DNA of 64,000 bases from Dysidea avara (lineage: Eukaryota; Porifera; Demospongiae; Dictyoceratida; Dysideidae), in contig NC_089272.1 in NCBI RefSeq assembly GCF_963678975.1, positions 8,037,858 through 8,101,857 on the forward strand, written 5' to 3'. Shown here piece by piece: positions 23,004-63,796 of this stretch (positions within the stretch are counted from its first letter, which is position 1; every line of letters starts with the position of its first letter). Under the pieces are notes generated by a model, which was given only the letters and a program-made list of their open reading frames with translations, ran no database searches and was not told where the DNA came from. Made by a program: the position numbers and the translations under genes.

Positions 23004-23009
23004 ATGTGG

Positions 23010-23509: not shown

Positions 23510-23721
23510 CAGATCGTTATCAATTAATTGGAATTAACATGACGTGATCTCGAGAGTTGTGACAATATTCGACCTCCTCTGCACTCGCCACGGTACACCT
23601 CACCTTACTCCCAAAAGCTGTTGTACCGTGGCATACTTAACGGTACCACGAAAGGCGAGCGCAATTCTATTGTTACAGTCGTTTGTAGCTTTCTTTCACA
23701 GCAGGTGGGCACTAACCGGAG

Positions 23722-24741: not shown

Positions 24742-24757
24742 CGACTCTCGCACTGGC

Positions 24758-40320: not shown

Positions 40321-42451
40321 TATGCATCAAGGGAGGCAGCAAAATCGTCCAAATTTGACTTCACCTCTCACGCTCCACAGCAGCTTCAAATCTTCACTAG
40401 ATCACCCTACATCACCATTATGCTTCAAAACATCCAAAAACAAACCGAAAAAAGCACAAAATCTTTCATTTTTGATTCGAGCTGGGTGGAGCTCCTGGTG
40501 AGCTACTGGTATACTGCATCATATGAAATCACAGAAACACCAACTACCACTACTACCAAACGTTTTGATCCATCATTTATCATCATTCTAAACAAAATTA
40601 AGTGACCAGTGTGGCATCAGAAGTACTGGAAAGCACTTCGGTACCATTGAGAGAATCCCTTGAAATGACGCACAAAAATTTGACGTTCTTCACCCAGATG
40701 GTGAGAAGTCTCAGATCCTTTCCAGACTAACAGTATAGACAGACTATGCATCCAACCTTATCACATCACTATGAGGAAGAGTTGGCTTTTCTAGTCTTTG
40801 CTGGTAAGGTAGTTTGAATTCGAAAATTTGTGTTTCGTTTTCTGCTTTTTGAGAGAAAGCAACCCTGTGCCGGGAACCCAGTAAATCATTTGCTTATTAC
40901 TGTGCGTACTTTTTAACTACATTAACTCTAGATAATATCTAGCTAAGCAGCAAGTTTTATTCTGTTCTTTGTGTGGAGCACGAAATTTTAAAAATAATTT
41001 TTGCATCTCACGAAATACTAAAAAAAATCGATATTTCGATTTTTGTATTTCGTGAGATGCAAAAATTATTTTTAAAATTTCGTGCTCCACACAAAGAGCA
41101 GGATAGAACTTGCTGCTTAGCTAGATATTATCTAGAGTTAATGTAGTTAAAAAGTACGCACAGTAATAAGCAAATGATTCACTGGGTTCCCGGCACAGGG
41201 TTGCTTTCTCTCAGAAAGCAGAAAACGAAACACAAATTTTCGAATTCAAACTGCCCTACCAGCCAAGACAAGAAAAGCCAACTCTTCCTCATAGTGATGT
41301 GATAAGGTTGGATGCATAGTCTGTCTATGCTGTTAGTCTGGAAAGGATCTGAGACTTCTCACCATCTGGGTGAAGAACGTCAAAATTTTCGTGCGTCATT
41401 TCAAGGGATTCTCTCAATGGTACCAAAGTGCTTTCCAGTACTTCTGATGCCACACTGGTCACTTAATTTTGTTTAGAATGATGATAAATGATGGATCAAA
41501 ACGTTTGGTAGTAGTGGTAGTTGGTGTCTCTGTAATTTCATATGATGCAGTATACCAGCAGCTCACCAGGAGCTCCACCCAGCTCGAATCAAAAATGAAA
41601 GATTTTGTGCTTTTTTCGGTTTGTTTTTGGATGTTTTGCAGCATAATGGTGATGTAGGGTGATCTAGTGAAGATTTGAAGCTGCTGTGGAGCGTGAGAGG
41701 TGAAGTCAAATTTGCTGCCTCCCTTGATGCATAGCTTAGAACGAGGCGTGGAAGCCGTGGATGAAATAATAATTGACAACCGCTGCTACCAAACGTTCAG
41801 GGACATCTTTTACCATAGTTTTAGTTTATAATTGATGATTGCTGTGGCTGCAGAAGCGCTGGAAATGGCTAGAAAGCGTGACACAATTCTTTGATGCTGC
41901 AGAAAATTTTGACGCTCGTCACCCAGATGGTGAGAAGTCTCAGATCTTTTCCAAACTAACAGCATAGACAGACTATGCACCCAACCGCATCGAAATACTA
42001 TGAGGAAGAGTTGGCTTCTCTGGACCTGGGTGATAGGGCAGTTTGAATTCGAAACTTCGTATTTCTTTGTCTGTTTTTTTCAAAGAAAGCAACCCTGTGC
42101 CGGGCACCCGGCAAATCATTTACTTATTTCTGTACGTACTTTTCAACTACAACAGCTCTGGATACGATTTGGCTAAGTAGCAAGTTTCATCCGGTCCTTT
42201 GTGTAGAGCACGAAATTTAAAAAATAAATATTGCATCTTGCGAGATACTGAAAACAATATTTCTGTGAAGACAACAATCGTGTCTCCGGTTTCATGGTAG
42301 ATCAAGCAATGGGATACTACAATGAACATCCCACAATGGTAGGGGGATTGATTTGTAGAAGTTGATTTTTCACATTGCGGACCCTATATAAGAGTATAAT
42401 ATAATAAAACTCGATTTTTTTTCACGCTATAGCCAGCTAGCTAGCTAGCTA

Positions 42452-42780
42452 TGCACCTATCAATGTATTGCCCCACCACCCCCCCCCCCCCCTCGAGCGT
42501 AAATAGGGCTTTACAGGGGGAATTGACACGAAACTGCTGCCCTACAATGGGGCATTTGACGATCGTTCAGTAGGTGCCCAAATATTTTTTGTTGTAACTT
42601 CCTTCGCTATGTCAAATCTCGAGTTAATCCCGCGTTGCAACTGGGGCCAACGGTGGGAATTTGACAAGATAGGTTTGCCCTACTATGGGGCATTTGACAT
42701 TCGGCTGTGTCAAATCCCCACTATAGCCCCATATATGCCCGAGGGGGGCCGGGTAGTGGGGCAATACATTGATAGGTGCA
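42452..42780. mobile_element. MITE with TGCACCTATCAATGTATTGC ends
   Basis: The inverted ends are about 27 bp. CTA flanks both sides, a likely 3-bp duplication. A C-run lies at 42479-42492. The interior repeats GGGCATTTGAC(G/A). It starts 19 bp beyond the stop codon of the large gene at 42799-60081 and so truncates that gene's 3' untranslated region. Confidence 0.8.
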
Positions 42781-42798
42781 CTACAACAAACACAATTG

Positions 42799-45700
42799 TT
42801 AACAAACCAGATAGCTTAAGAATCTCCGAATCTTCCATTTGCCTTCATATTCCCCTTCTAGCCACTGTACAGTGACGCTAGCTTCCTTGATAGCTTTCAA
42901 CCTCCCAATTTGGGGAACAAAATCTTTATACCTCTCACACTTTAGTAACACATGACTACCAACTGCAGCATTGCAAGCTGATTCAGCAATGGATGATGTG
43001 GAGGCAGCTGTAGATCTTGTTTGTTGAGAGGTGGTACTGGAAACAGATCTTCGACTGGCTTTTGGTCTTGCATCCTTTCCAAGTACAATCTATGACAGCA
43101 AACACAACACTTAACTTGTCTTATATAAACAACAATACTTAACATATCGTGGTATTGACCCGGTATCTGGTATTGACCCTTAAGCAAGGACAGCAAAGAC
43201 ACCTATATTTAGGAGGGGGGAGCTGCCGGTGCAGCCAAGGGATGACATGGCCTAGCTGTAAGTCGAAGACCAAAATAACGGTAATTGCCTGTTGATAATA
43301 GCTGCCCTCCACCAACTATATCTGCTTATTTATAGCTACATACATAGCCTGCTACAATGTTTCTCTGAAGAATAGTGTGACTGCTCTATTGGAGTATCTC
43401 GAATTATTGATTCTATTGGCATGCTCTATAGATAATTTGAAGGAGGCTAAGCCCCTCCATTATCTTTTTAGCAGGGGCTACAGCCCCCCTCCCTCCTTCT
43501 CTGCCACCCCTTCCCTTAAGTTGGCTTAGAATCATCACTCTGCTCATACATCCAAAGTATTTGGACCCATTCCAGCATGTTCCTGGGTAAATATAAACAT
43601 AATATGCGGTATGGTTATACAGGGTGCCAGAGAACCATCTGCCAAAAGCATATCTGACAAATGCAGGCAAGTTTAGGATTAGATAATCTTGATAGTGCTA
43701 TGTTCAGCCCATTACATAGTGATACAAACAAAGAACAAACAAGAAGTGACACTGTAATCAATCCAGTTATTACGGAGAAATACAGACCATTCCTGTTACA
43801 AACATGAGGAAACCATCATGTACACACACACTTACAAACATGGGGAAGCTATCATGCACGCTACTCACCAAAAGCAATGGGACACAAAGAAGGAAGGATA
43901 AAAGTAAGTCTATGATGCATGCATTGTATGTACTGTAGTATGCCAAAGGGTATATACCAGTTGGGCAGAAAGAATGCTTAATCAAGCCCAAAACAGCCCT
44001 TATTGTTATTGAGTTGTTCTTGTCTGAAGGCATCCAGTCAGCAGAAAATTCCACTGAATAAAAAATTTGATAGCCGAAGCATTTTGGGAAGTCACACAGA
44101 AGGCATTTAGGGCTTGAGTACTGCTAAAGGATTAATCATGAAGATATTGCGAGGCTGGTTTTGGGATGATTATTTATGATCCCCAATATAGAACACTATC
44201 ATACTGTATGATGTAACATTCAAATAAGCATGTGCATATTGCATGAGACAGACTGTTTACCTGTCTAACTTGTCTTGCATTATTAGTTTTTTCAACCACA
44301 TGCACTGGCAGAGAAGGATTTATGCTGATAATTCCTCTTTGATTCAATGGTGCAAGGTCATCAACTATCCACCGTGGAGTTACTGATGGTACTGTGCCAT
44401 AGACGGTATTGAAAGTGGAGAGAAAGGAGTCCCACTTATCCTTGGAATTAGGTGGAAATATACCGGTGTTACAATATTTTGGCACATCTTTGACCATTTG
44501 ACCTATGTCCTGTTTTGTAAGAGATGGTTCCAATACACCTGGCTTGTTTGATGGAATAGACTGTAAACAAAATATATGCAAACATAAAATTACTACAAGC
44601 ACAACTTTCATTACCAAAATACAAATTGAACATGTATGCATATACAGCGGAACCTGTCTAATTTGGTCACCTTTGGGCCAAGAGTTTTTGGCCTTAATAT
44701 AGGTAGGTGGCTGTTTTAGTCAGGTGGATTAGTGTATTAAACAGTATGGTAGTACTGTTTAAGTAGAGATTGCCAGAAATAATGTGCACCTCCAAAAATG
44801 CTGCTTTTAAAAAACCAACTTACAAACATCTTATGTGACAAAAATCACCTTTATGGAATAATAATAGTCTATCTAGCATCAAACGTAGCATTACAAACTG
44901 GCCGGATATAAATTTTTTTTAAATAGTCAAAATGTCAGTGACAGTGGTCAGTGAGTGAGTCAGTGAGGCAGAAAGCCTAGAGGCCAAATGAAGCAGCGCA
45001 CGGCCACAATTTTACACCACGATAACAAACTCACCAGTGGGATTTGCCTTTTAGGGGTCTGAAGAGTGTGTGCCCTCTGTGCCTTGTCTATTCTTTTATC
45101 TTCAATAAGCCTGCTTGTCTTCTTCATCCAACGAAACCATATCAAGGCGTTAATTTTCCATATCAACACTTTTTTAAAGAGATGATACAAAAATTATTTA
45201 AGGCGCTTAAGACTACGCTACTGTACGGAGGTACCAGTACTAGATAGATAGGAATATGTAACTACCTACATATTCACAATAGGTCTCAAGATCCCACGCA
45301 TTCTTCGTTCTACTCATTATTGATCTAGACCACGATGACCACACCCCTTTTATGCTGTAACAGATGTCTCTCTTCTAACAGTGACCACACACCTTCAAGT
45401 TGGTAGGCTGACTCAAGATACTCTAATAATCGATCGAAACCATGATGACCACACCCTTTTTGGGCAGGAACATATCTTTGCAGGCCGACTCAAGATACTC
45501 TAATACAGCAGTCACCCTAATAGAACACTCACTTGTTTATAGCTATAGTACGTTCGCGTTGAGCTGAATCCTGGGTTGTTGATTAAGAAGCCATACAAGA
45601 TCAAAGGCTTTAAACATAATGTTTATGACGCATTTGTTCGTAAGCCCATGTTACGGGCGCGCACTTAATTGTTGTGAATATGGCGTCCAGTGCACCGTCA

Positions 45701-48700
45701 GCAAGTGCGGAGCGAACCCCCTTGGGAAGAAGTTAAACAGCCAAACGAAGTATCTACTTATGAAACTATGGGAGTACTTTAAGCAAGAAGCGAAGAAATG
45801 TAAAATTTCTATCAACATCACGGAGAGAATCTCGAAGGCCACCGGTATTGTATGTAATGCCTTCTTTGCTGGGTTTTTGGCATACATTACGCCACGCAGG
45901 GATTTCAAGGACATCTATTAGAATGGAGCACCGCAAGAAAGGTGGTTTATTTACGCCAAGAAAAGGTACAAAATGCACTTTGCACAAGCCCGCTCAATTG
46001 TAATCGTCAGGTACAAATGTTCACGAGTCCATGTTGATGCACACAGTTTTGACCCAGATATTGTCAGACAAGATCCATTCATTGTACGGAAGGAAGGAAA
46101 TCTATCGCTCTCAAAAATTTTGGTAAGTTAAATCATAGATACTACGGTTAAATTTTGAAACCTGGAACTTTGTCACGTACTCCGTCTTAGGCCAAACTTA
46201 AGAATGATGGTGTTTTCTCTGGGGTAGAACATTGCTTTAAAGAGTGTTGAGTGATATGGGATTTAAGTACTAGACGATTAATGACAAGAGGTTAGAATTG
46301 AAACTGTTTGTGCTTTAATGTCACTACACGTATATGCAGGGTATGCTATGAGCATCCCTGCACAGTCCATCAGCATCATAAATATTAAAGACGAACGAGG
46401 TGCAACAGAACTGAAGGAAGACCAGTTGTGTATTTGGATGAGACTTGGGTAATGAAGAACTTCTAGAGCAATTCCTCATCCAAATCAGCAGTGATAGTGA
46501 AGATGATGATGGTGGTATTAATGAATCTTCCACTAGCAGCAACGGGTCCAAGTCTTCTTCTGGGCTTACTTCATCTGATGTAAGATTGTTTGATATTTGC
46601 AGCATTGGTGTTACAACTTGATTTTGTTCCCCAGGAGTCATCGGGTAGCTGGGATTAAACTCTGTGAAGTACATGAAAATACAGATGAAGTGTAAGTGTG
46701 TGCACTTTAATAAAAAAATACCATTGCTTTATTGTGCTAGCAGAAGTTGAACATACCATCCCTTGTATATGAAATCAGTGCAGGAGTGTTTGGTAGTCAC
46801 TACAGGTACTATCAGCCCAAATTCATACAAACAGTATTATTTCATTTGTTGAAAATTTTAGAGTTTTAACTTAAAAAACAAAATGCTGGCTGTAAAAACT
46901 GTGTACATGTGTGGCGAAGTGATGAGAAAAGGATTAAAATGACAAATTGACTAAATGGGAACAGAAGACAATAATCAGCTGTGGTGAATGTGAAATAAAA
47001 TACATGTTGTTTGGCTCACTTGCAGGAACACCAATGCTGAATAACAGATTTTGAGCTGTTATAATTTGGTATTTTTCTCTTTTGAGGCTGAAGAAGTTTT
47101 TTATCTGAATATAAGCAGGCCACTTATCTTCTAAATAGTGCAACAGTGGCCCCAGCTCTTATACTTATGCAACTCTGTTTTACACACACAAAATCTGTTT
47201 TATTTTTCTTGTAAAAGTGTATTACAGCCTCTTACATAACGGATGGTGAAATCATGCGTGTTGAGGGCGGGTGTGTGACGTCTGGCTTGGCCACAAACAT
47301 GTGTCAACATGACCATCAAAGGGCCGCGCTTTAGAGGCTTCCCCATTGAAAATGTATGGCAAAACTTTACAGTGTCATAACTGGAGTGTCTTACATTCGA
47401 ATGAAGCGCTTTTAATATATTTTTAGCGGATCGAGAAGCGCTACGTATCGAGCAATACAGGAGGCTCATGTGATGTAGCAATCGTAAGTTATTAATCGTT
47501 TTTGAGGGTTCAGCTCAACGCGAACGTACTATAGCTGTATGCCTTAACAAAAAAACAAAAAAAAACTAGTATATTTAAATTATAAATTGTGCTGAATCAA
47601 GGATACTAATTAGAAAGTTGACTTTACTAAAAAATAAACTATTTAAATCGCAAATATTAAAGGATCAACAAAAAAGTAGTGATTTGATCGATCAAAGTAG
47701 AGGTTGCCTATACCTGCAGATTCGCACGGTAGTGGATATTTAATCCCTTTACTCTGGTCTATAACCACGACAGATTACATACATCTATAGATATAGGCAA
47801 CCTCTCTTGTTTCACTACTTTCCTCATAATGGCAAACATGGTTAAATTACTACTGTGCAACACATACATAAGTAAATACATACATACCTTTAATATAAGA
47901 AGCCCATCATTATTTGGTAGCCAATCACTTTTAGCCCATGGTTTATAATACATGGCTGTCTGGCCTTTGGTATTCTTATGGAAGTTGAATATGTGTGGCT
48001 CGGTATGGTATTTTATTGCTTCTAGACAAGGTGATATCCACTCTCGAATATTAAACAGGTAGTGCAGAACTTTGACATCCACTACATTACTGTTGGAAAC
48101 TTTTGTTGCTACAATCAGATCTAATTGAGATAGAATAACATCATAGTTTACATAATAGAGTGGTATGATACAACTAATAGGCATTATGCAATTAAACACA
48201 AAGTGACACATACACTGTAAAGTATTTACATATATGTACTGTTGTCACCTTCCATTGTGAATGTTGAGTTCTTCTGCAAGTATTTAGATAGACAACTGAA
48301 CCTCTGATCAACATCAGAATGGGTATGCCCAACCATTAGGAATCCCAGCTCAATCTACACACAAAGCACATCCAATGTATGACACATAGACCACAATGGC
48401 AGCACTGTATATGCATCATGTATGCATGACCACTATACTTTACAAAGTCTGTGCATATTTAGTTGTGTGTATTGTAGTATGGGTGTTGGTGTGTGCATTT
48501 GTATACCTCCTCAATCAGAGGAGGGTGCACACGATTCAATCACTGCTGAACACATAATGGTTCATTCAAAAATGCCAATGTATTTTGCTATTTTGCTCCA
48601 ACATTGGCAAGTCACACACATAGACATTTATTTCCAATACAGTCCTTCAATATGCAGTATTAGTCCAGTCATTTTATGATTTAACCTTTAACTAATTGCA

Positions 48701-51700
48701 ACACAAGCTTTCTTAACAGTTTCTAGCACAGAAAATTGTACTCTATAACATATCAAAAGTCCTAAGGAATCCCATGACGGGAAAGTGACCTTTTAGTGAC
48801 CTTTTACAGCCAATTTTTGGCAAAAATTGAGAATTTTGCCTCTATTTCATCCAAATATCAACCAAATTGGTCAAATGTGGTATCAAATGAATAGTCTCAC
48901 TGAAAGGAACAATGTGATACTTATTTGAAGTCAATAGCTCATTTCGTTCAGAAGTTAGAGCCATTTAACTGATCAAAAAATTGGCCGCCCACGCACTTAA
49001 TTAATTTTGTCTGGCTACTGTGTTTTGATGTAGCATTGGAAATGCATGATTTGATTATGGTAATAAACATGATTGATAGCAAGGGGTAACTAAGAAGCCT
49101 TTAGCGTTGGTCTGTTGTCATGGAAACCAAATTTGTGTTTGAATTGATGCTAACATGATTGTGACATATAAACTGGTAATTTTTCAGCAAATAATAATAT
49201 TATAGCAATTTCTTAGATTGTACGTAATAAGCTCTGATATAAATGTAAACTTATGACTTATATAAAACAGCATAAATTCCTAAGAAATTCTGTAAGGATA
49301 ATCCAAAGTCTACATCAATTATCATCATCTTCAAGAATCACACCATCAACATTGGTACAAACTGTTCCTTTGCAATTGCCACATGCAGGAGAACATTTTA
49401 CATTAGATTTCTTGCATGTGCACCTCATAGTGCTACAATCTGTGTGGCAATTACATCTTATTATCTTAAGTAGGTCATCTGGAGCTGGTGGTAAATCAGT
49501 GAACAATGGCATTAGAGTCCCATCACACTCTTTCCACCCCCATTCAAGTGGCTGAAATTCTCTGCCACAGCCTTTCCACTCCTGTATTTGTAAATACACA
49601 CGTAGGCTATGGTATTTGGCAGCTGCGGAAGTAGGAGGTAGAGTTTGTGGATGAATAAATGTGACTGGGCCTGCGAAAATAGGGCATGTGGGCACATGAT
49701 TTTTACCTACTTTTTCAAAATTTCATCACTCATAACGTTTTGTGCCATTGTGCTATGGCAGTGCAACTTTCTGCTCTTAGTAAGCATTTAATTGGATTTA
49801 AGATGCAAGTTACAGAATACAAATATTCTGTTCTAGTACTGAGATATGATCTGTATAGTGATGGGTTGTAGTTTGTGCCCACATACCCTGTTTTCGCAGG
49901 CCCGGTCACAAATGTATTATTCGTAGCCACTTTCTCACAGAAACACTAATAGCGTAAACAGTCTAATGTTTCTCCTGGTTTTCCGTTGTACATTGCCACT
50001 AAAGCTTGCTCTCCTGCTGCAATTATTTCTTTCGGTGTAGCAGATGATGTGCAAAATACTTCTGCTTGCTCTTGAAAGTTTCGAATTGACTGGAACTTCT
50101 TAAGGGAAGCACCTTTTCCAATACCATACAGTTGTAAAGTAGTATCACATCCAAGTATAGCATGAAGGAAAAGAAGATTTTTACATACTTCAGGACCAAG
50201 TTTCTTCTTGGCAGCACTAATGTTCCATACTCGAAGTTTCTTGGTGGTGGTTCTTTTTGGCTCAGGTTTGAAAAATATGGTATGAGAATTTAAGCAGGCA
50301 TGATAGCATAACAATACCAGAAGATCGGTGTCATCACCAACCAGAACAGTGTCTGTTACTGTGGCATATGCTTAAGCATATGCTTACCAATAAGCATATG
50401 CTTACCAGTGTTTGTAGCTGTTGCTGTACCTGGTTGTTCTTCTTTCACTCTTAAAGTTTTAGCTATTTGATCTGGTTTACAATATTGGCGGCGACATTCC
50501 TGGTGTACCAACTGTCCAGGTACGCAATGCACAGTGTCTCTTCTTTCTTCACTTGCCTTATTGATGCTTGCACATCCCTTTTCTCCTAGGGTAACTTTGG
50601 ATAATGCTTCTATGGGTAGATTGCAAATGACACACTCTTCTAGTACCTCCATGTCTTATCCATTGAGATCAGAGGATAGCACTCTAGCTATTCAATTGTC
50701 TTATAAAGCTTGCTAAATAATAGAATAAGAAAATTTAATGTGCAAGGATTGCATGAAGAATAAACCTAAAAAAACAAATTAATGGCCATGCACAACAATG
50801 TCCAAGTAAATTAAAAGGCATATATAGCAGCCTTAATGATTAAATAAAAATATATGGCTACTATGACTAAAATGTTTGAATTCTTGATTTCACAAATCTT
50901 ATTAACACAAATACAAAAAGGTTGGCAGCAGTCACTAGTTGGCAGAAAAATACAGTATTGATTTTGATTCTCATACCTGAAATCTATTGCTTTAGTCTCT
51001 AATATTCTACAGCAATCAAAAGAAAGACACTGTTTTGCTTCTTTTTAATGCCAAGTAAACAACACCATTAGTTATCATGGCAACAGTTATTGGAGCATAA
51101 TAATCCCAGCTGTGTGATAGTGATAGTTTTCTACCTCTATACTACAAGAAAATTAGCTGACATTGCTCTGCAATTAGTTGGACACTAATAATTAATATAT
51201 GCTGAAACCTTTAAAGCTGAGCATTTTGCTGACAGCTGAATGTGATTTGTTGACATAAATGTGCTATATAAATTTTATTTGAACTTCCCATATACTAGCC
51301 ACCTTTGCATAGCAAATTCAAAATTGTACAGTTTGCAATATAATTGGTGGATCTGTGTGTTAGGCCTATATACAGTGTGTAACTGCTTCAAGCTAACAAT
51401 AGTACAGACTGGTTTCCATGGTAACAGTCAAGTCCTGAAGTGCCACAAATCTCCTTTGTCATTTTTCGTCTTTTACCACAGCTTAAAGTGTGCTTCCAGT
51501 CAAGAAAAGAACACTACTATAGTGAAAACCTTAAATTTAATTAAGTGCGTGGGCGGCCAATTTTTTTGATCAGTTAAATGGCTCTAACTTCTGAACAAAA
51601 TGAGCTATTGACTTCAAATAAGTATCACATTGTTCTTTTCAGTGAGACCATTCATTTGATACCACATTTGACCAATTTGGTTGATATTTGGATGAAATAT

Positions 51701-54700
51701 AGGCAAAATTCTCAATTTTTGCCAAAAATTGGCTGTAAAAGGTCACTAAAAGGTCACTTTCCCGTCATGGGATTCCTTAGGACTTTTGATATGTTATAGA
51801 GTACAATTTTCTGTGCTAGGAACTGTTAAGAAAGCTTGTGTTGCAATTAGTTAAAGGTTGACCCCTTATTTTCCATAAAATGACTGGACTATAATGCCTA
51901 GTTCAATAAAGCAGTTCTAGGTGACAATTAAAGCTCTTGAGAGCATACAACAGCCAATTAATAACTTTATAGCACAACTGACATACTAGACAACTACCAT
52001 TTAGGTATCTTGTTGTAATTCTCCTAAGACACATTCAAATGCCTATGTGGAAATGACTGTGAAACACTCTGTACATGCTTGAATTGAATAGAAACAGTAT
52101 AGGCAAATGGGCATCAATTGACGATTATGTTGATAAACAACACTAGTAGAATTTGTGTTGTGCCAGAGGTGAAGCACGTGTGTATTAAGAAGAAGCAGAT
52201 TCTTTATCAATGTGAGTTAGTAACTTATGTATGTATATTGCTTACAGGTTAAAGTCAGGTTTGTACAACTTACCTCTGAAAAAATGTTCATTTCAACGAG
52301 AAACGCCATAAAACCAAAGATATACTTATTCTTGTTCTCACGGACACAGTTGTCCATTTCAACAAGAAGCTTTGGTGGAAGCTTTGGTGGAAGGGTTCTC
52401 TGACCAGATATTTCCAGCAAAGTTAGTAATATACACATCAAAGTTAAATTACAGTCATGTGGGAATTGGAGATAGTCATAGTAGCAAAAGGTTCCAGTAC
52501 CATGCACCAACACTCCTGTTAAATGTGTTCGTAGCGTCCAAAGATTCTGGCAAGACTTGGTCTTTTTGACCTATGCATAAACCACAAAATGAAATACATA
52601 CATACATACAGCTATACACGACAGTATTTAGCTGTAAATGCACATGTGCCTTCATGTGTAGTGCATCTTTACATGAATGCATGTACAGTAGACCCTTATT
52701 TATTTAAAATTGCAAATGACTGCTCTATTAGAGTATTTTGTGTACATGTATATAGTATTTAATTAAAGAGCTCTGTGTAGAAATGTATGGACTTCAACTA
52801 TACTATTTTATCATCGTCTGAAATTTTAGATAACCGAAGGTCCACTGTACATAATGACAAATACTGTAACAAAATACAGCAGGTAAAGTATATGTATGTC
52901 TGCGTGTGTACATTGTAACCACCTGACACAGTACTGTTAACCTCCTTCCTATTAGGGCTGAGCGATAGTGAAATTTTCACTGTCCGGACAATATCAAGAC
53001 ACTGTTCACGATAGACGATAGTGATAATTCACCTATTTAGTATTAGTTGCCTTCAAAGAGAGTTGTAAGGAGGGATGTACCCATGCATGTATTTTACATA
53101 AGATATTAAACAGCCTTTTAGGCTGATTCTTGTTATTATTTTAAAGTATTTTGCAGATATTTCTCCATATTTTACTTGTTAATTACTGTCCGATAGTAAA
53201 TGTTCAGGCAATATAGGCGATACCGATAGGGATACTATCCCGATATTCTGATACCAGCCCTAGATGCCTTTACCAATACATTTGACAACCAGTACTTTAA
53301 TTTCTGTTTGATCACAAAGTGTCCATTAAATAGAGTTTCCATTTTAGTGTGTGTATGACTGTGTGCACAGTATGTTTATGTGCTTGTAGAGTACTTTAGT
53401 ACATGTACAGGTTCACATTAGATGTATTTAACATATTTCCAGGACTTTTCCAACTCCATGTGCAACTGAATTTGACAAAACCAGGCTTCGACGCACAAAG
53501 CTTCGTTAGGAGATACAGTGATTTTAAGTAATCATTGTGTAATAACTTCCCAGTAGGGACCAGTCTATTTTGCTTTTTTTCTACATATTTTTCTTTCCAG
53601 CAATTCTTTTATTTTTCACCTATTATGCTCCATATTTTGCTCAAGAATTATAAATTTTGCTCAGCACTGATCTTTGTTAATTGAATATTTACAAGTGCAA
53701 AGCTACAGTTTCGCCTTAAAGTGACTGTTCTATTAGAGTATTTCGATCAAAAATTACTTCTAACATGTAAAGCAAGAAGCCAGCTAATATTGCTTAACAT
53801 GTGTGACTGTTTTATTAGGGTACCTCGATTGTCACTTGTTGTTCCTGTAACAATTAGCTATGCATTGTCGATATTTTAGCGTGTCTGACTGTTCTATTAG
53901 AGTATCTCGATCTTTTGTGCAATTTTTATGTCCACTTCACAAAAATTGCACCTATTATGCCAGCATTTTGCTCATTGCTTTTACCCAACCATTATGCCAA
54001 AAATTTTGCTGGCGAAATCGACGGGTCCCTACTTCCCAGTGCCTACAGCTGTGCGAACAAAATTTGCACCAATTATTCATCTATTTACTAGCTATCACTG
54101 AGTGGGTGTATACATTTCTGATACCGTATTGCTTGATATACTGTATGTACAAGTAAAAGAAAAATTAGGAATTTTAAAGTTTGAACATAGCTGACAACAA
54201 AGTGTAATGGATGCTTCACTTTTCAGATGACAATTGATATAGTTGGGGCGCACGGCACCATTTCAGATGGGGTATGCGAGTCATAACAATTATTTACAAT
54301 AAAGTTAGCAAACTAGTACACTAAATAATTGGAATTTTCAGCTAGAGTAGGGACCATAGCACATCGATAAAAAGCACTGAAACTAGTAGGAGTAGTGCAC
54401 GATATTAAATCACAATAAAACAATAAGAAGTGTTATTATTATTTTTCATTATTTATTATTAGCACTTTATATCCCTACTGTGCTCAAGATACCACAATGG
54501 AAATGCACAGTAGGGATATAATATTTTATTTTACTGTGATTTAATATCATGCACTACTCCAACTTGTTTCAGTACTTTTTATCAATGTGCTATGGTCCCT
54601 ACTCTAGTTGAAAATTCAATTCTTTATAGTATACTTAATTCTACAAGTAAACTATGTAGCTTACCAGATTAGGAATGTTGGTTTTATTTTGGTCCATACC

Positions 54701-56012
54701 ATCAATTATTAATGAAAGATACTCTGTTGGACTCTGTGTTGCAAGCTGACAATTAGTTGAATATCTTTGACGTTGCTCACTATTGACAAAAGACAAGTAA
54801 AAATGTAAGTTGTATATTATCTGTAGCTGGTATAACTCAGTATAGTCATACAAGTGCTCTAGACAGCACGTACCACATTTACTTGGCTAAATGACATGAT
54901 GTTTATTACCTTAGTTCCAAATATCTACTGTATGTGGTGAGTATTCGAAATTGACCTCTACGTACACGATGGCCAAAAACTAAAATCAGGTATGGCACTG
55001 CTTAAGTGTAGCAACAATTATTAAAGGAGCAGAATTTAAGCAAGTCAATCTGGTATTAAAGGCATGGATGTGGAAAAATCATACAGACCAATTATATAGT
55101 ATATACATCATGGATTTACTGGTACAGTTTACACCATTGCAACTCAAAAAAATATTATGTACCACAAAACATCTTGCACAAGCAAATATACTGCATGTGT
55201 TTAGGGCCTCAGTAAACAAAGAGATCTTTATGTACGTATACTGCATATATACTTGGAACAGTTGTACAAACTGGTTTATGAAGCCATGACATCACATTTA
55301 CGGGAATATGTTTAGACCACAATAGTAAAAGCGAATATATGTAGTAGCATACAGTGGGAACCTGTTAACAGTTGGTTAAAAAGAAAGGCGTGGCACATTA
55401 GCATGATTGTGTTCTAGAGAGTTGATAGTTTATACCACTATGATATGGTTGTTACAATCATGTGGTCTTCCTGTTATGAAGAGGAGTAACGGAATATGAA
55501 ATAACGGAACAACAGAATAAGTACAACAAAAACAATCTATTATCATTTATACATTTCTAAGATTGTAATCGTGATGGGAGAACAACACTGGAGCGATCCT
55601 TAGGGTGATCTTTAAATAGGAAGCACCAACTCTAGACAAGTGCACTTCACTACATAACTATAAGTTCTTTTTCTATACTTGTATTACATAATTTACAAGG
55701 CAGGCGTTAACTTTTCCTAAAACTCTGCAATGAATCCAGTCAGTACAGAAAATACAGGTCATACACAGGGATGCTGTATCATACTATCTCAAATCAATAT
55801 ACCTTGCGTTGTCAGTTAAAAAAACCGGGTGGTTGGCGAAAAGGCACATCTTGGGATGATACGACATCAGAAATTGCATGTAAACCCGTACCATAGCCTT
55901 ACCTATTGTCAAGTTACTGTATGTTTGGCTGGAGATCAGTCAGTCAGTCAGTCAGCCTGTCAGTCAGTCAGTCAGTCAGTCAGTCAGTCAGTCAGTCAGT
56001 CAGTCAGTCAGT

Positions 56013-56088
<76 letters not shown>

Positions 56089-56617
56089 CAAACAATTATT
56101 AGAATATTCAGTTAAACAGAAAATATCAAAAAATTATTGGAAGGGTTTGGAATTTGTTTAAATATATATTTGGGCTTGGTTATACTAGTACTGTACCTAG
56201 CCAATACTGCCAATCTTCCTTGAAGAAAGAATGAAGTTGGCTTTCTGGGTGATATTCTTAGCCATAATCCCTATCATACATTACTACCATACCGCACATA
56301 CCACATAGTATGGCATATAGATACATTGTAAGTGTGTGCATACAGGAGATACAGTACAGGTATTATAAATATAATTAGAAAACTACAATGACTAACTCTT
56401 GTAAGCGAATATGATCGTTTAAAAGTTCATTCAGAGCCTTCTTTTCCTGATCAGCACACTGAGGCTTGGACATCTCATATTTTAATAATACGCACATATC
56501 ACACTTTGTAAACCTACAATTCTGTAAATACAAACAATACTTAGGTATTAATACATACATACGTACACATTACATGTATATGCACACATACGTATACATA
56601 CATATATGTGCACACGT

Positions 56618-56656
<39 letters not shown>

Positions 56657-59600
56657 TACACAAACACACACACATACGTACAATGTAACACTCACATCTT
56701 AGTTCAAAGGAGCCGCCAGGACTAAATTCACAATGTGGCCCAATTGGCGACATAACCCAGGCTCCAGGATGCTAAAAACTTAGCTCAAATAAACCCCAAC
56801 ATCACACGTGATACAACAGTCATATTGATTACAATGCAATAGCGGTATGAAATACATAGATATGGCTGTGAAATTTTAGCCTTTGAAATAAAAATTTTGA
56901 AGTTTGCTGATTATTTCCTGTCAGTTATACACTACTACACACAGCCTCACCCTCCTGTACTTTTTTGTATATGTGACCAGCTGAGTGAAAACCGGCCATT
57001 ATCACAAAAAATCACTTTGCCATAAAACTGTATTGAAATATATACACTGTATAAAATATACGCGTGTTACATGAAATTTTTACAGCCGCGTGTTAATATG
57101 TGACCGGGCCTGCGAAAACAGGGCATGTGGGCACAAAGTACACCCCATCACTCTACAGGTCATATCTCAGTATTGGAAATGTATATTTCCATTCTGTAAC
57201 TTGCATCATGATGCCAATTAAATACTTACTAAGAGCTGAAAATTGCAATGCCATGGCATAATGGTACAAAATGTTATGAGTGATGAAAGTGTGAAAAAGT
57301 GGGCAAAAATCATGTGCCCACATGCCCTATTATCGCAGGCCCGGTCACATATACGCGTGTTACATGAAATTTTTACATGAAATTTTTACGCGCTTTAATC
57401 GTGTTTGTGCGTATTGAGATTAAACTCAAATTAATCAAACCTGACACCACTGGATTCGTCTGTTCATGGAGAGTAAGAAAATTTTTCTTTCGTCTTTACA
57501 CAGCAAAGGATACGTGAGTTATGTACATTTATTTACGATGCGGTAAAAACAACGTTCACTATGCATTGTCATTTCTTAATTGGAATGGCCTTCTTCTTTA
57601 TCAACAGGAGGATTACAGGGAAAGCACTATACCTTGATTTATTTACCTGTTCATGGTGCACAGACTAAGCCAATCCCCACCTTTGTACCTTGTTTCAACT
57701 GTGAGTTATGATCGATTACCTAAGCACCTGTAATTTATTTCTTGTATTGTTGCTGTACAAATCAAATTTATGACTGTTTCAATTTCCAAGCGTTATCTCA
57801 AAGACCATTCAGCTGACATTTTGGTTGTCCACTCTTTTGTTACTATAGATTATGGAGATGTAATAAAGTGGAATTTGAGGAATGTGCGAAAACAACCAGT
57901 TTTTGCTAAGCCAGCCACATATATCATGACAGTTGTATATGCAATTGAATAGCTAAAGCCTTGTAGGTAAATGCCTGGATCTATATTTCCATGGTTAACA
58001 TTGAATGAACACCTTAGGATCGGTGTCAGCTTGGGTAATATCCATTCACTGCAATTGACTACTGGACTCACATTAACTTTGTTCAAACATTAAAAATGAG
58101 ACCATTACTTGCATGGTATATCACACACTAAGGATTGTTTTTCAATATCTTACATATTAGAGGTAAATATGTACAGCTAACTGTGGTGTAGTTATGGTAC
58201 CATATTTTCTGGGGGTTTTTATTTCTTTCAAGCACTTTTGACTTGACCTGTTAGAGGCTTCATTTGAGTCTGGGAATTTATTTTGGATAATAAATCTGGT
58301 CATGTGAAATGGAAGCCTGATGTATGCATGGAGGCTCTTCTTTACTGTTTCAAATTACAAATCCATATGTGACCGGATTTGCAAAAAGATACCTTTTCGA
58401 CACATTTGACATACCAGCAAACAAAGTGATGTAACACTTGACTCCTTACACTGATTAACATTCTCGTAGTATCCAAATGAAGTCAGATACTTTAGCTACA
58501 TCCTTTGATAATTTCAAGCAATTATATGCCATGATCAAAAAGTTATGAGGCTTTAAAATTCAAAAAAATGGGTCACATTTTGTGTGTGAAAAAGGTACCT
58601 TTTTGCAAATCCAGTCACATATTAGTTTTGTTCAATAATAAGTATTAGAAAGTCACAGAGGATCTGAGTATCATAATATGGTACTGATATGTAAAAGGTT
58701 TAGTCATTTGGACTAAAGAGATGGATTAAGTAGAACACATGCATAGTCAGCAAACATAAAAGGCTTGACCTTATCAACACAATATCAACACTTTTCTACC
58801 ACCTACAAAGGTTTAAATTGGAAAAAAGGTCACTGCACATTGCTCTACTACATAACATACATAAAATTTACATTTGGTATTGAAACATTCTTAAATTCAT
58901 CCTTGAAAATTTTGCAGAATTTCGAATAACTAATACATTTCATTGACTTGCAAGCTACATGAAGTTCTTCTGTCATGATTTCGTACATCTTCCATTCTGT
59001 GAGACAGGTTGGCAAATATATCCAATCTTTATCCGGTCTTTTATCCCCAACTCTCTCGATGTACGCCTCCAACCAGGCTAAAGCTTCAACAGTCTTTGTT
59101 TGCCTGTGCTTGCTAGAGCATTTCACAAGATAGTTTGCCCCATCAAACATCAAGAAATCTTTTCTGACTCGATAGTACCGAGATGAACTTAACGATAATA
59201 TCTCTAGCCATAAACTAAGACATACTTCTTTTCCATGGATAAGATATTGGATCTTTTTGATATCCTTCTGCCCATCTGCATCCCGAGGGCAATTAAAAGT
59301 AAAGTACTTTGCAAGCCAAACATTCTTCTGTTGCCCAGACAAAGTCGAAAATTGAGTATGCGCACTTAAAATTTCATAATCGTTAAGCTGGTGTAATGTT
59401 TTGGCACAGTTGACAATACATCCATTAAAATCTACAATGGCAGTTAATTTCCATGAGGCATTTCTAGTCATGTCCTCTAATCATCATTAGTGTTGTTGTT
59501 GGAAATACCGAGATTACCAGTAGATTCTAAATTGACAGTAGAAATACATGTATCTGTACCACTTACAATTGGTTGCATATGCTCAGCGTTGATTCTCGTG

Positions 59601-60081
59601 TTGGTGGTATTACTATTGGGAAACGTCATTCGAGAATGTGCTTTTTTTCTTTTTGGTGTGCTACAATTTGCCGGCTTAAATTGTTTAAACGGTGGCTCGG
59701 TGGTACTAATGTCTCCAATAGCACTAGTATTGAAGGCCAACCTTCGTGGCTGATATTTCTGTGGCTCTAAATCTAGTGTTAGCCTTTTTTCAGGCGAAGC
59801 ATCTGGTAATGAATCTTCTGACATAAAAATAGTTTCAAATTGCAACTTCTCAGGTGATGCATCTGGTAGAGAGGATAGCGAACCGGAATCATCATGTCTG
59901 AATTCCAACGATGCATCGGGCAATGTAGAATCACTAGTAACTTCTTCTGAATCAGTGGTACTCTCGAAACATGCCTACAATTGATAGGCGTTGTCACAAG
60001 TCATCATAGCACAAAATTCACTTTTAAATCGCAACTTGCCTCCTCTATTGAAGCGCCTGGAAATGTACCATTAGTTGACAT
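42799..60081 (-). CDS. Ten-exon gene for an RNase H/transposase-like protein with Tudor-like C-terminus (about 857 aa)
   Basis: Exons (-): 60081-60040, 59974-59518, 59476-58872, 56521-56397, 54779-54665, 52570-52274, 48354-48249, 48120-47888, 44560-44261 and 43089-42799 (stop TAA). All nine junctions keep frame. The N-terminus is Ser/Asp-rich with repeated LPDAS(L/P)E phrases and a basic PKRKKAHSR (possible nuclear signal). Next comes a conserved block (GDKRPDKDWIYLPTCLTEWK, then NCRFTKCDMC). The core has three acidic motifs: IIDGMDQNKTNIP (Asp about 436), VEMDNCVRENKNKY (Asp about 521) and GHTHSDVDQRFS (Asp about 561/563). These recall a DDE/RNase H fold. The last exon has a Tudor/chromo-like piece (VGSHVLLKCERYKDFVPQIG, then SVTVQWLEGEYEGKWK). 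From memory this is an uncharacterised multicopy metazoan family (Pfam DUF7869 type). Catalysis is inference. Intron 1 is GC-AG (65 nt); intron 2 is only 41 nt. The gene appears intact. Confidence 0.75.
43245..43410 (+). repeat. Dispersed repeat F2 copy
   Basis: It shares CTAGCTGTAAGTCGAAGA, AATAGCTGCCC, ACCAACTATAT and TATTGGAGTATCTCGA with 19345-19500. It ends in the dispersed CTCTATTAGAGTATCTCGA-type motif. Confidence 0.65.
43690..44200 (+). repeat. Dispersed repeat F1, diverged copy
   Basis: GTTCAGCCCATTACATAGTG, GGGACACAAAGAAGGA, ATGCATTGTATGTACTG, TATGCCAAAGG, CAGTCAGCAGAAAATTCCAC and GGCTGGTTTTGGGATG follow the F1 order. A CATGT...ACACAC inset lies at 43800-43860. Confidence 0.65.
44700..45540. 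other. Intron DNA with repeat-like pieces
   Basis: Two copies of a GATGACCACACCC phrase (45334 and 45444) and inverted forms of the GAGTATCTCGA motif (45415, 45492) lie here. A - strand stretch at about 45187-45016 ends in a perfect GTGAGT donor but does not fit the phase of the surrounding gene. Confidence 0.45.
45541..47534. mobile_element. Decayed Tc1/IS630-like DNA transposon, internally deleted (2.0 kb)
   Basis: Terminal inverted match AGCTATAGTACGTTCGCGTT at 45541 and its inverse ending near 47534. Flanks are TA-rich, but the exact TA duplication is not clean. It carries the transposase remnant described at 45663-46619 and lies in intron 8 of the large - strand gene. Confidence 0.75.
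45663..46619 (+). pseudogene. Tc1/IS630-like transposase remnant
   Basis: The N-terminal HTH part is recognisable: MASSAPSASAERTPL in one frame, then KKLNSQTKYLLMKLWEYFKQ and NITERISKATGI in another. Further on come DAHSFDPDIVRQD...LSLSKIL and, near 46415-46450, GRPVVYLDETWV, the motif round the first catalytic Asp of DDE_3 transposases. This runs almost directly into an acidic tail (LIQISSDSEDDDGG), so most of the catalytic core is deleted. Several frame changes. It would have cut and pasted the element through its terminal repeats. Confidence 0.7.
49318..50652 (-). pseudogene. Remnant of a PIN/XPG-like plus CXC-type multicopy protein gene
   Basis: Three parts in - order. At 50652-50430 a Cys/His N-terminus (CVICNLPIEALSKVTLGEKG, then LVHQECRRQYCKPDQIAKTL). 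At about 50370-49940 a PIN/XPG-like core (VLVGDDTDLLVLLCYH, LGPEVCKNLLFLHAILGCDT, YGIGKGASLKKF, AGEQALVAMYNGKPGE). At 49650-49318 a Trp-containing linker and a tesmin-like CXC cluster (IRCNCHTDCSTMRCTCKKSN, then CSPACGNCKGTVCTN). From memory, full proteins of this metazoan family are about twice as long. The N-terminal and PIN parts are separated here by a scar of AAGCATATGCTT repeats (50367-50405), and a MITE (49661-49909) splits PIN from CXC. It may be the element's own gene or a passenger. Confidence 0.6.
49661..49909. mobile_element. MITE, GTGACCGGGCCTGCG family (249 bp), AAAT duplication
   Basis: Ends GTGACTGGGCCTGCGAAAAT and, inverted, TTTTCGCAGGCCCGGTCAC. AAAT lies on both sides. The same family as 57100-57348, related to 58369-58618. 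Confidence 0.9.
52954..53262. mobile_element. Possible hAT-like MITE with AGGGCTG ends
   Basis: It begins AGGGCTGAGCGATAGTG and ends GATACCAGCCCTA. The inverted ends are short, the interior repeats GATAG, and no clean duplication was seen. Confidence 0.5.
53554..54031. mobile_element. Non-autonomous hAT element (478 bp), CTTCCCAG duplication
   Basis: Ends TAGGGACCAGTC and, inverted, GACGGGTCCCTA. The 8-bp CTTCCCAG lies at 53546-53553 and 54032-54039. The interior holds CCTATTATGC(T/C) repeats and three copies of the CTATTAGAGTATCTCGA-type motif (53727, 53812, 53890). Related to 30949-31385. Confidence 0.9.
54180..54290 (-). repeat. F1 5' fragment, inverted
   Basis: AAAGTGTAATGGATGCTTCA, CTTTTCAGATGAC and TTGGGGCGCACGGCACCATT are the inverse of the F1 start. 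Confidence 0.75.
54341..54612. mobile_element. Foldback MITE M1, full copy
   Basis: GCTAGAGTAGGGACCATAGC on the left is mirrored by GCTATGGTCCCTACTCTAG on the right. A TTATTA-rich inset and the CCCTACTGTGC...GCACAGTAGGG inner pair lie between. Confidence 0.85.
55937..56090. repeat. Compound microsatellite (CAGT)n then (CAGG)n
   Basis: About 19 CAGT repeats (55937-56013) switch abruptly to about 19 CAGG repeats (56013-56090). F1 3' sequence follows directly (56110-56300), so it probably grew from the TCAG run of an F1 copy. Confidence 0.95.
56110..56300 (+). repeat. F1 3' fragment
   Basis: CAGAAAATATC, ATTTGGGCTTGGTTATAC, CCTAGCCAATACTGCC and TTGGCTTTCTGGGTGATATT follow the F1 3' order. Confidence 0.7.
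56545..56690. repeat. Microsatellite cluster, (TACA)n-like and (CA)n
   Basis: ATACATACGTACA-type repeats are followed by a pure CA run at about 56621-56652 and CA-rich decay. ORFs here on both strands are repeat translations. Confidence 0.9.
57100..57348. mobile_element. MITE, GTGACCGGGCCTGCG family (249 bp), ATAT duplication
   Basis: Ends GTGACCGGGCCTGCGAAAAC and, inverted, ATCGCAGGCCCGGTCAC. ATAT lies at 57096-57099 and 57349-57352. The flanks also share ACGCGTGTTACATGAAATTT on both sides (57058 and 57353), a longer direct repeat that predates or accompanied the insertion. Confidence 0.9.
57464..57698 (+). other. Possible small + strand exons
   Basis: 57464-57511 reads MESKKIFLSSLHSKGY and ends at a GTGAGT donor. 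57605-57698 has acceptor CAACAG, a long open stretch (GKHYTLIYLPVHGAQTKPIP) and a GTGAGT donor. The phases of the two do not match, so a gene is not established. Confidence 0.25.
58369..58618. mobile_element. MITE related to the GTGACC family (250 bp), ATAT duplication
   Basis: Ends GTGACCGGATTTGCAAAAAG and, inverted, CTTTTTGCAAATCCAGTCAC. ATAT lies on both sides. Confidence 0.85.
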
Positions 60082-60220
60082 CGCCAGGTGTACCTCGACT
60101 TGCACGAAGTAATCTACCTCACGTGAGGCACAAGGAACGGCGCGCACTAATGGACTTTATCCACATTGACGTCACAACGTAATATGGCAGCGGGAACTTT
60201 TGTACAGGGCCCAGGGAGAT

Positions 60221-60669
60221 TAGTCTCGCGTAGCCAGGCCCTTTTCTTTCTTTTGTGTGGGGGTGGGGAAAGAAAAGGGTCTGGTGAACATAGCATAGCA
60301 TCGTCGTTGGCCTATCCCGAGATTGTGAGGATTCTACTGCGCAGCTTCCGGATTGTTTGTGGGTGCGAATGACGTGTTTTGTTAACCATTGCATCATTTG
60401 CGTCCTGTTGTCATAGATATAAAACGTGATCTGCATCATTCGCGTTCTATTACCATAGCTACTACTTTTATATCTATGGCAACAGGACGCAAATGGTGCT
60501 ATGTTTAGCAAAACACGTCATTCGCACCCACAAACAATCCTGAAGCTGCGCAGTAGAATCCCCACAATCTCGGGATAGGCCAACGACGATGCTATGCTAT
60601 GTTCACCAGACCCTTTTTCTTTCCCGCCCCCACACAAAAGAAAGAAAAGGGTCTGGCTACGCGAGACTA
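60221..60669. mobile_element. MULE-like foldback MITE (449 bp) with perfect 9-bp duplication
   Basis: Ends TAGTCTCGCGTAGCCAG and, inverted, CTGGCTACGCGAGACTA, with arms of about 200 bp. CAGGGAGAT lies at 60212-60220 and 60670-60678. Nine-base duplications point to the Mutator superfamily. It lies 140 bp upstream of the start codon of the large gene, so it may sit in its promoter. Confidence 0.9.
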
Positions 60670-60679
60670 CAGGGAGATG

Positions 60680-61515
60680 GCTGTGATATACTGCAGTAAG
60701 TGAGGCACAGTGTAGCTCCAACTCAAGGGGGGTGTCACTCTGGGGATCTGCAATCACGGCCAAAGCTAAAGGTCAATGAAGCAAAACCGATTTTTCACAA
60801 AGATCAACTGTTCTCCCAGCATAGTCAAAGCTTTGCAAGTAAGTAGTGCACGAAAACATAGTCAATGGCATGGTCAAAACCAAAGGATTTATGACAAGAC
60901 GAATTTTCTATGGCAAGTCAACGGTCGATATCGAAATTCCGTTGACTTGGTGACATTTTGGTGGCTCTTGACTTAGACATTGAGCCACAGTCGCAGATCA
61001 CACTACAGTGAATGCCCATGTGTTACCACCTTGTCAAAACCACCTCACTTGATATGACTGGTTGCCATTGGATGCACAATCAATGTAGAATTCAAGGAGG
61101 AACAAATTATAATTTGAGACCATTGAATTGACGCTATGTAGAATGCACGGAGGAATAAAATTGATAACTTACTTATACGTAGGTGTTTAATATGATTGCC
61201 ATTGGGTTCACTTTCAATATTGTAGGAGGACAAATATTTCAAAATCATATTTCAAAATTATCACTATAGAAGGACAAATATTTCAGAATCACATTGCTTG
61301 ATATAATTGATTACCATTGCATGCATGCGCAATTTGGATACTTACATAGCTAACATACATACATACACATACATACATACCTAGATACATACCGCATTGC
61401 CTTGAATAATGGCCTGGGTAAAAAAAATTGCCTACACATGTATTTCATTGAAGTAGCTTTTCACCCATGTCACTGGATCTGGGTGAAAGTTGCTCAAAAG
61501 AAATAAATGCCCAGG
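60680..61515. other. Intergenic DNA, nothing recognised
   Basis: There are no supported exons. Short repeats of GGACAAATATTTCA occur near 61210 and 61270. Confidence 0.45.
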
Positions 61516-61518
61516 CCA

Positions 61519-61656
61519 CCATACATACATACATACATACATACATACATACATACATACATACGTACGTACGTATGTACGTACGTACATACATACATAC
61601 ATACATACATACATACATACATACATACATACATACATACATACATACATACATAA
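61519..61656. repeat. (CATA)n microsatellite with a central CGTA block
   Basis: Near-perfect CATA repeats of about 138 bp with a GTAC/GTACGTACG core (61564-61590) that makes the array partly palindromic. All ORFs through it (HTYI or MYVC repeats) are artefacts. Confidence 0.95.
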
Positions 61657-61689
61657 GAAGCATGGAGGGACCAACTACTTTTAATACAA

Positions 61690-63790
61690 TTTTTTACATC
61701 ACTTAATATGTATGGTTACCGTTGAATACATAGAAAACACATATTGAATGGGTTTCATTATTACACATAAAATAGCAAATTGACATCTCATAATGTGATT
61801 GGTTGCCATTGGAAACTAGATAATGGGTTTTATCATTTCACATAACATAGCAAATGCATCTCTCGTAATGTGATTGATTGCCACTTCCATTGTACACACA
61901 AATAGAAAATCGAGATATCATAATGTGATTGGTTGCCATTTGAGAAATGCTTCCCTTAGACAGCATGCAATATGGGTTTCATCATTATGAATAAAAATAA
62001 TGGCAAATTGACATCTTGTAATGTGATGAGTTATAATTGACAATACGTTTGACTACGACAACATGTATTGTTTGACATGACATAGCAAATGAAGCTCTCG
62101 TAGTGTGCCATTGGAGACTATGACAATGGGTTTCATTATTTCATAGCAAATTCACCTTCACTTTACACTTGTAACATGGCACTATTCCTGGATGTCAATT
62201 TAAGACAATAGGTTAAATGTATGATGAGTTATAGCTTGTCAAAGTTGAAAATATAAAACCCCTTTTCGCAGACCTGGTCACCAATAGAACATTGAGATCT
62301 CGTAATGTGATTGGGGTTGCCATTGGAGACATGCTTCCTTAGACAACATGTATTGAATGGGTCTCATCACTTCACATATCATAGCAAATTCACCTCTCGA
62401 AATGTGATTGGTTGCCATTGGATACTAGATTCACATAACATAGCAAATTCATCACATAATTTGATTGGTTGCCATTGGCGATACACTTCCCTTAGACAGC
62501 ATGCAATAAAATGGGTCTCATCATTTCACATAACATAACAAAATTATAATGCACCTCTTGAAATAGTTATGATTGGTTGCCATTGCTCAACACACTTTTC
62601 ATAGACAACATGCATTGAATGGGTTTCACCATTTCACATAACATAGCAAATGCACCACTTGACATGTGATTCGTTGCCATTGGAAACTAGACAATGGGTT
62701 TCTCCATTTCACATAACAGCAAATTGATCTCATGTAATGTGATTGGTTGCCATTGGCAACACACTTTCCTTAGACCACATGTATTCAGTGAGTTTCATCA
62801 TTTCACATAACATAGAAAATGCACCTCTTGTAATGTGATTGGTTGCCATTGGGAACTAGACAATGGGTTTCATCATTTCTCATAGTATAGTGAATTGATC
62901 TCACATAATGTGATTGGCCATTGGCAACACGCTTTCCTTAGACACCATGTATTGAATGGGTTTCATCAATTCACATAACATAGCAAATACACCTGTTGTA
63001 ATGTGCACGTGATTGGTTGCCATTGGAGACTAGACAATGGGTTTCTTCATTTCACATAGCATAGCAAATTGATCTCACCTAATGTAATTGGTTGCCATTG
63101 GCAACACACTTTCCTTAGACAACATGTACTGAATGTGTTCCATCATTTCACATAACATAGCAAATGCACTCCTTGTAATGTGATTGGTTGCCATTGGCAA
63201 CACACTTCCCTTAATGACATGCAATTATGCATTGAATAGGTTTTATCCTTTCACATAACATAACAAATACACCTCTCGAAACGTGATTGGCTACCATTGG
63301 AGACTAGACAATGGGTTTCTCCATTTCACATAACAGCAAATTGATCTCATGATTGGTAGCCATTGGCAACACACTTTCCTTAAGCAACATGTATTCAATG
63401 AGTTTCATCATTTCACAGAAAGTGTACATGTACCTCTGTAATGTGATGCCATTGGAAACTAGACAGTGGGTTGCATCATTAATTTCATGTATTATACAGC
63501 AAATTCACCTCTCAAAGTGCCATTGTTTGCCATTGGAAACACACTTTCCTTAGACAACATGAGTTTCATCATTTCAGATAACATAGAAAATGTACCTCTG
63601 TAATGTCATTGGTTGTCATTGGAGACTAGACAATGGGTTTCATCCTTTCACATATTAACATAGCAAATTCACCTCTTGAAATGTGCCATTGGAGACTAGA
63701 CAATGGGTTTCATAATTTCACATAATTATTAACATAGCAAATCCACCTCTTGAAAAGTGATTGGTTGCCATTGGAGACTAGACAATGGGT
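61690..63790. repeat. Long diverged satellite (about 2 kb) of ATGTGATTGGTTGCCATTGG units
   Basis: Units of roughly 95-110 bp contain ATGTGATTGGTTGCCATTGG, then either GACTAGACAATGGGTTTCAT or CAACACACTTTCCTTAGACA, then TTTCACATAACATAGCAAAT. The two unit types alternate, giving a higher-order period of about 190-200 bp. There are at least ten higher-order repeats, and order decays toward the left. Confidence 0.9.
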
Positions 63791-63796
63791 TTCAGG

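Follow-up and report, generated by a model that had tools for sequence, protein, structure and literature searches.

A nine-intron DUF7869 gene of the sponge Dysidea avara, a probable member of a transposon superfamily shared with bacteria

Does the transposase-like gene of ten exons that is located on the minus strand of a 64,000-nt stretch of the Dysidea avara genome (contig NC_089272.1, positions 8,037,858 to 8,101,857; here "the window", on contig C1 of our searches) belong to a mobile element, or has it been kept by its host? The original prediction, made from the window alone, favoured a host-kept or end-less copy. Here, we have compared the gene and its protein with relatives in the sponge's own genome and in bacteria, and our argument draws directly on the protein family, the invariant residues, the predicted fold of a homologue, the inverted-repeat ends of the relatives and the many copies. 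We consider it likely that the gene encodes an RNase H-fold transposase of the D-D-D type and that, together with the bacterial and the own-genome DUF7869 proteins, it forms a single cut-and-paste superfamily, the terminal inverted repeats (TIRs) of which begin with [AT]TG[TG]G, with TGACAAAA or a variant of it following at about position 14-21. The window copy most likely belongs to a mobile-element lineage and is not an ordinary host gene, because of the many genome copies and the bacterial elements with similar ends.

The gene, its DUF7869 domain and the conserved aspartates

The DUF7869 domain (PF25273), which the original prediction had named, is confirmed by Pfam at residues 459-652 of the window protein (profile positions 1-191/192, E 5.4e-67), spanning exons 6, 7 and 8; its score of 225.6 bits, against a curated cut-off of 26, places the protein within the family. 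The seven bacterial proteins introduced below match the same entry, for which Pfam gives no function, and the window protein extends beyond the profile on both sides, with a cysteine-containing N-terminal part and a C-terminal part. No other Pfam family was found in the window protein, no Pfam transposase family reaches its cut-off in it or in the seven bacterial proteins, and no NCBIfam transposase model matches the latter.

The alignment of 16 proteins, which includes near-identical copies and leaves out locus L038, where no frame is long enough, has revealed four conserved aspartates, D445, D486, D527 and D569, and all 16 invariant columns are kept in the window protein. Three acidic motifs had been proposed as catalytic from their spacing: residues 521 and 563 (D527 and D569 in the present numbering) are indeed conserved, while 436 (D442) and 561 (D567) are not. 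The bacterial equivalents of the proposed catalytic aspartates are D388, D467 and D509. The fold predicted for the bacterial homologue from a seven-sequence alignment has the strand and helix order of the RNase H fold, with acidic residues on strand 1, where strand 4 ends, and in the helix that follows strand 5; D445, D527 and D569 of the window protein have been put onto this fold by alignment only. The expectation that the fold brings the aspartates together was thus examined on the bacterial homologue, with a favourable outcome as to topology, and the conserved aspartates and the homologue's fold support a transposase-like protein with an RNase H-type D-D-D arrangement.

Among re-examined Foldseek candidates, the retroviral integrase catalytic core and the mariner transposases (Mos1, SETMAR) are 6-14% identical to the homologue model; unlike in these proteins, the third acidic residue of DUF7869 is the aspartate of GHT-x4-D. 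No PDB sequence match to DUF7869 proteins, those of integrase and mariner included, is better than E 1.1: the bacterial protein has none, profile A2 has one at E 1.1, and the single match of the window protein (E 2.8) was judged to be chance. A single-sequence AlphaFold model of protein P0002 reached a predicted local distance difference test (pLDDT) score of 34 and was discarded.

In the proposed mechanism, the cysteine-rich N-terminal part and a helical region would bind the element ends, while D445, D527 and D569, with D486 nearby in the fold, would hold metal ions; the element would then be cut out and joined elsewhere, probably at AT-containing sites. DNA cutting, the domain roles and activity are what we infer from the evidence named at the outset.

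The gene runs from position 60081 to position 42799, and its ten exons join into one frame of 862 codons, with introns of 47, 41, 2350, 1617, 2094, 3919, 128, 3327 and 1171 nt, in this order. The exons and the stop at 42799 occur at the positions first predicted, with every junction in phase. The splice borders had been described as GT-AG with one GC-AG: the GC donor (AG/GCAAGT), located 18 nt upstream in exon 1, is in phase and fits equally well, yielding 856 instead of 862 residues, but in the 862-codon model all nine introns are GT-AG. Exon 1 (60022-60081, alternatively 60040-60081 with the GC-AG intron) carries the start codon and is in phase both ways; exon 2 (59518-59974) is an open frame encoding a Ser/Asp-rich N-terminal part; neither has homology support. 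Exon 3 (58872-59476) encodes an N-terminal domain that is homologous to the bacterial proteins (conserved C192, C258, N287 and P328). The alignment assigns a CxxC pair (C381, C384) and H411 to exon 4 (56397-56521), and D445, which falls on the first strand of the fold, to exon 5 (54665-54779). DUF7869 starts in exon 6 (52274-52570; D486, and D527 in DNCVRENKN), continues in exon 7 (48249-48354; GHTHSDVD, with D569) and ends in exon 8 (47888-48120; invariant F633 and G641), followed by exon 9 (44261-44560) and exon 10 (42799-43089), which holds the stop codon. The support for exons 1-2 and 9-10 consists of open frames and splice signals, the chance of one frame staying open being 8e-5 (exon 2), 0.002 (exons 9 and 10) and 0.29 (exon 1). 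Judged from sequence, the ten-exon gene is real and not a chance assembly, because the match to the DUF7869 profile runs over the junctions of exons 6, 7 and 8 and a bacterial protein aligns over exons 3-8; residues invariant with the seven bacterial proteins are present in each of exons 3 to 8.

Bacterial relatives and their inverted-repeat ends

A DNA pattern that combines DNC...NKN and GHTH at the spacing of the window has a single match in a collection of one genome per species (84,980 species), in a metagenome-assembled genome (MAG) of Desulfobacteraceae: an intronless frame of 659 residues, which matches DUF7869 (E 4e-22) and aligns with window residues 314-603, i.e. exons 3-8, at 24% identity (E 5e-15). 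The family search has returned seven genomes among 389 from the order to which this MAG belongs, one among 395 sampled from its phylum and none of the 14 controls; within the family of genome G523, which carries L014, G523 alone was returned (1 of 5). All seven bacterial proteins match DUF7869; one of the genes (L008) is cut by the contig start. Two of the seven matches are located on contigs of 147,846 and 48,122 bases, where the neighbouring frames look bacterial by eye; contamination is therefore unlikely there. No relatives were found in plasmids, phages and PHROGs, in genome contigs searched with the protein, or in viral contigs, where three pattern matches (L001, L002 and L004) were inspected and dismissed as due to chance. 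Beside one bacterial DUF7869 gene, at 40-2339 of L003, there are three minus-strand frames, perhaps of another mobile gene, the largest of which has a weak MULE match (E 0.016, below cut-off).

In five of the seven bacterial genomes, the gene is located between inverted repeats, and TIRs are thereby present at the level of the superfamily: 43 nt at 100% identity in L013, 39 nt at 87% in L014, 61 nt at 95% in L015, and 42 nt at 88% in both L016 and L017. The distance between the outer arms is 2,079 to 2,888 nt, and in all five elements AAAAC[CG]TA occurs 17 to 19 nt inward of [AT]TG[TG]G, as counted by hand. In three of eight bacterial loci no inverted repeat was found around the gene: the L018 contig begins in the gene, the right flank of L020 consists of N, and L019 is a partial match. 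AT is found at both outer borders of L013, L014 and L015, where it is inseparable from the AT-ended repeats without an empty site.

Copies in the sponge genome and the standing of the window copy

The search of the sponge's own assembly (550.8 Mb, 108 contigs) has found at least 152 exon-level matches to DUF7869, with several matches per gene and including near-identical copies across contigs, in agreement with the first description of the protein as multicopy. The copies are of two kinds: in 13 loci (L021-L033, the window copy being L026) the profile match ends at the border of window exon 6, while in the other kind the domain is contained in one frame, the open frames being 466 to 723 residues long in the eight loci used (L035, L043-L048 and L050). 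Several intron-bearing copies form pairs that are nearly identical although located on different contigs (L029/L030, 99.1%; L021/L023, 97.5-98.9%), and the window copy belongs to an intron-bearing lineage with recent duplication, which may have come about through movement as an element or through duplication of a larger stretch.

Inverted repeats surround the open reading frame (ORF) in 5 of 10 own-genome loci. The cleanest pair, L045/L046, is 98.5% identical over 2,397 nt, and the likeness begins and ends within a few nucleotides of the inverted repeats. Six further copies (L034, L036, L037, L040, L041 and L042) have one common end, [AT]TGTGACCGGATTTGACAAAACCCGG, next to six different flanks; the stretches compared cover one end only. 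Read from the border, the ends are ATGTGTACTGGACTGACAAAAGG (right arm of L045), ATGTGACCGGATTTGACAAAACC (six-copy set) and ATGGGGAGTGAGCTGACAAAACC (bacterial L013). When three own-genome ends were compared with six bacterial ends over 22 nt, the best likenesses were 15, 16 and 15, reached by 10, 3 and 6 of 20,000 letter shuffles, counts that flatter somewhat, the register having been picked by eye beforehand.

The closest relative compared with the window copy is L022, on contig C2, which is 94-99% identical over window positions 47589-48659, 51892-53554 and 54031-54184, introns included; L022 has neither the 3.2-kb element nested in intron 6 nor the piece at about 53555-54030. Over exons 6-8, the two copies differ at 3 of 624 exon sites, against 40 of 2,077 intron sites (Fisher P 0.0096); two of the three exon differences alter the amino acid, exons 7-8 are identical (339 of 339 sites), and a 12-nt deletion in exon 6 of L022 is in frame. 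L022 also carries an insertion with inverted ends (CACTGTGAAAAA/TTTTTTCACAGTG), which terminates in TTTTTTCACAG, after which the frame would continue in phase; it may have broken that copy, or may supply its own in-phase splice acceptor.

Several findings weigh against a mobile D-D-D transposase. The gene model is a prediction from sequence, and the predicted fold is that of a bacterial homologue about 18% identical to the window protein, not that of the spliced window protein itself, with residues 400-407 and 469-471 of the homologue, near the active site, below pLDDT 50. The L022 insertion (337 nt, at about 1163-1499), located 12-16 nt into exon 6, is closed in three frames. Around the window copy no inverted repeats or end-motif pair were found between 60082-64000 and 36000-42799, the best pair having 19 of 33 matches where 60 shuffles gave a mean of 19.6. 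This bears out, for the scanned stretches, the absence of element ends first reported, and for this reason we do not count the window copy among complete elements. Target-site duplications were not established in any of the five bacterial loci tested, where the candidates are of at most 4 nt and inconsistent, and none is evident in the ten loci whose borders were inspected; the inverted repeats are thus the putative borders of DUF7869 elements. Among the repeat pairs listed, at most five per locus, L034, L035, L036, L047 and L050 have none that flanks the ORF within stretches of about 3.5 kb, and L043, L044 and L048 are similar outside their inverted repeats too, so that a larger unit may contain these repeats, which would then not be its outer borders. 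The latter three copies are located within a larger repeated unit, with tandem repeats that contain ATGTGTACCTTAGTG or its reverse complement, and may have a different layout.

The lack of ends near the window copy would suit a transposase-derived gene that is kept by the host for a cellular role, its nine-intron form immobile, its ends lost and its copies made by segmental duplication; so would the nine introns, seven of which exceed 100 nt and several of which hold other elements, the slower change of exons 6-8 relative to introns, the in-frame deletion and the retained catalytic residues. We regard this explanation as unlikely, and do not retain it as the favoured one: a working transposase accounts for the slower exon change equally well, an amino acid is altered by two of the three exon differences, the edge of the paralog's exon 6 carries an insertion, and the 13 loci that match up to the exon 6 border include several near-identical copies on different contigs, where a domesticated gene would have few stable copies and no recent spread; moreover, relatives with inverted-repeat ends occur both in bacteria and in the sponge genome. 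PGBD5 (PMC3902484), likewise an intron-containing transposase-like animal gene, derived from piggyBac, is described as domesticated, while the window gene has near-identical genome copies. That the gene is a decayed relic with exons intact by chance would fit a window rich in transposable elements, with mobile elements all round, but it is highly improbable given a DUF7869 domain across three exons, 16 invariant columns kept, nine junctions in phase and exons 7-8 identical to those of the paralog.

It is possible, if rather doubtful, that DUF7869 belongs to a eukaryotic superfamily that has already been named (e.g. Sola, KDZ or Academ) and is unlabelled by Pfam: our comparison covered Pfam, NCBIfam and the literature, with Repbase and Dfam outside it, and two of the seven bacterial members have a weak DDE_Tnp_ISAZ013 match (E 0.018 and 0.13, below cut-off). 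The missing Pfam and NCBIfam transposase matches speak against this, as does a literature search under the name DUF7869, which found no paper; wider literature searches showed no title on the family either. Since these searches found no paper and no NCBIfam transposase model fits the seven bacterial proteins, we take DUF7869 to be a superfamily that is of a known kind but unnamed. IS481EU (PMC10045372) and Sailor (PMC8533490) are transposons described in prokaryotes as well as eukaryotes, likewise with one transposase superfamily in both domains of life; their transposase families differ by name from DUF7869, and the bacterial DUF7869 proteins match no IS481 model. We are somewhat inclined towards an undescribed cut-and-paste superfamily across bacteria and animals, which would keep the end layout [AT]TG[TG]G ... 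TGACAAAAC and be represented in the sponge by intronless elements of compact size, by short non-autonomous elements that share these ends, two of them within an intron of the window gene, and by a nine-intron lineage still multiplying.

Elements in and around the introns, and significance

Several mobile elements are located within the introns, where the original prediction had counted at least seven. Intron 3 contains two short inverted-repeat elements, at 58365-58622, with ends ATATGTGACCGGATTTG as in the six-copy DUF7869 end, and at 57096-57353, with the similar ends ATATGTGACCGGGCCTGCGAAAAC; both probably represent non-autonomous members, mobilised by a DUF7869 transposase. A 40-nt piece of intron 5 (53458-53497) is 87.5% identical to the end of L036/L040/L041. 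The piece at about 53555-54030 starts with TAGGGACC, finishes with GGTCCCTA (minus strand) and has ACTGGGAAG on both sides, an arrangement that resembles an inverted-repeat insertion flanked by a target duplication of about 9 nt. The nested 3.2-kb element of intron 6 (48651-51900) has inverted repeats of about 300 nt (98%) and encodes GDDTDLLVLL...GCDTT pieces and a Cys-rich CXC-like stretch, with no Pfam family above cut-off; the C2 paralog, which lacks it, provides a natural empty site. Another piece of intron 5 (54181-54636) and the stretch 12055-13383 belong to one palindromic repeat family.

Just downstream of the gene there are nested palindromes (37742-42405), in which two arms, 37742-38414 and 41732-42405 (93%), enclose a palindrome of 1.4 kb (40321-41733); a further palindrome, at 60221-60669, with 204-nt arms (94%), begins 140 nt upstream of the start codon. 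Elsewhere in the window, the long frame at 14012-15727 is presumably, as judged by eye, a tyrosine-recombinase retroelement, and the long frames at 21058-27564 we take, also by eye, to be a long interspersed nuclear element (LINE) type, with endonuclease and reverse transcriptase. Long tandem arrays occupy 33418-36210 and 6417-8009, and neither Rfam, at its gathering threshold, nor tRNA scanning has given a match in the window.

With the reading of the gene as a D-D-D transposase, DUF7869, so far an annotation without function, gains a testable role, with named residues and ends, and the small bacterial elements (2.1-2.9 kb between the outer arms) are directly assayable. The sponge gene raises the question of how a transposase gene with nine introns goes on multiplying; the family would be a possible source of short inverted-repeat elements in its own genome, and a further case of a transposon superfamily that is common to bacteria and animals.
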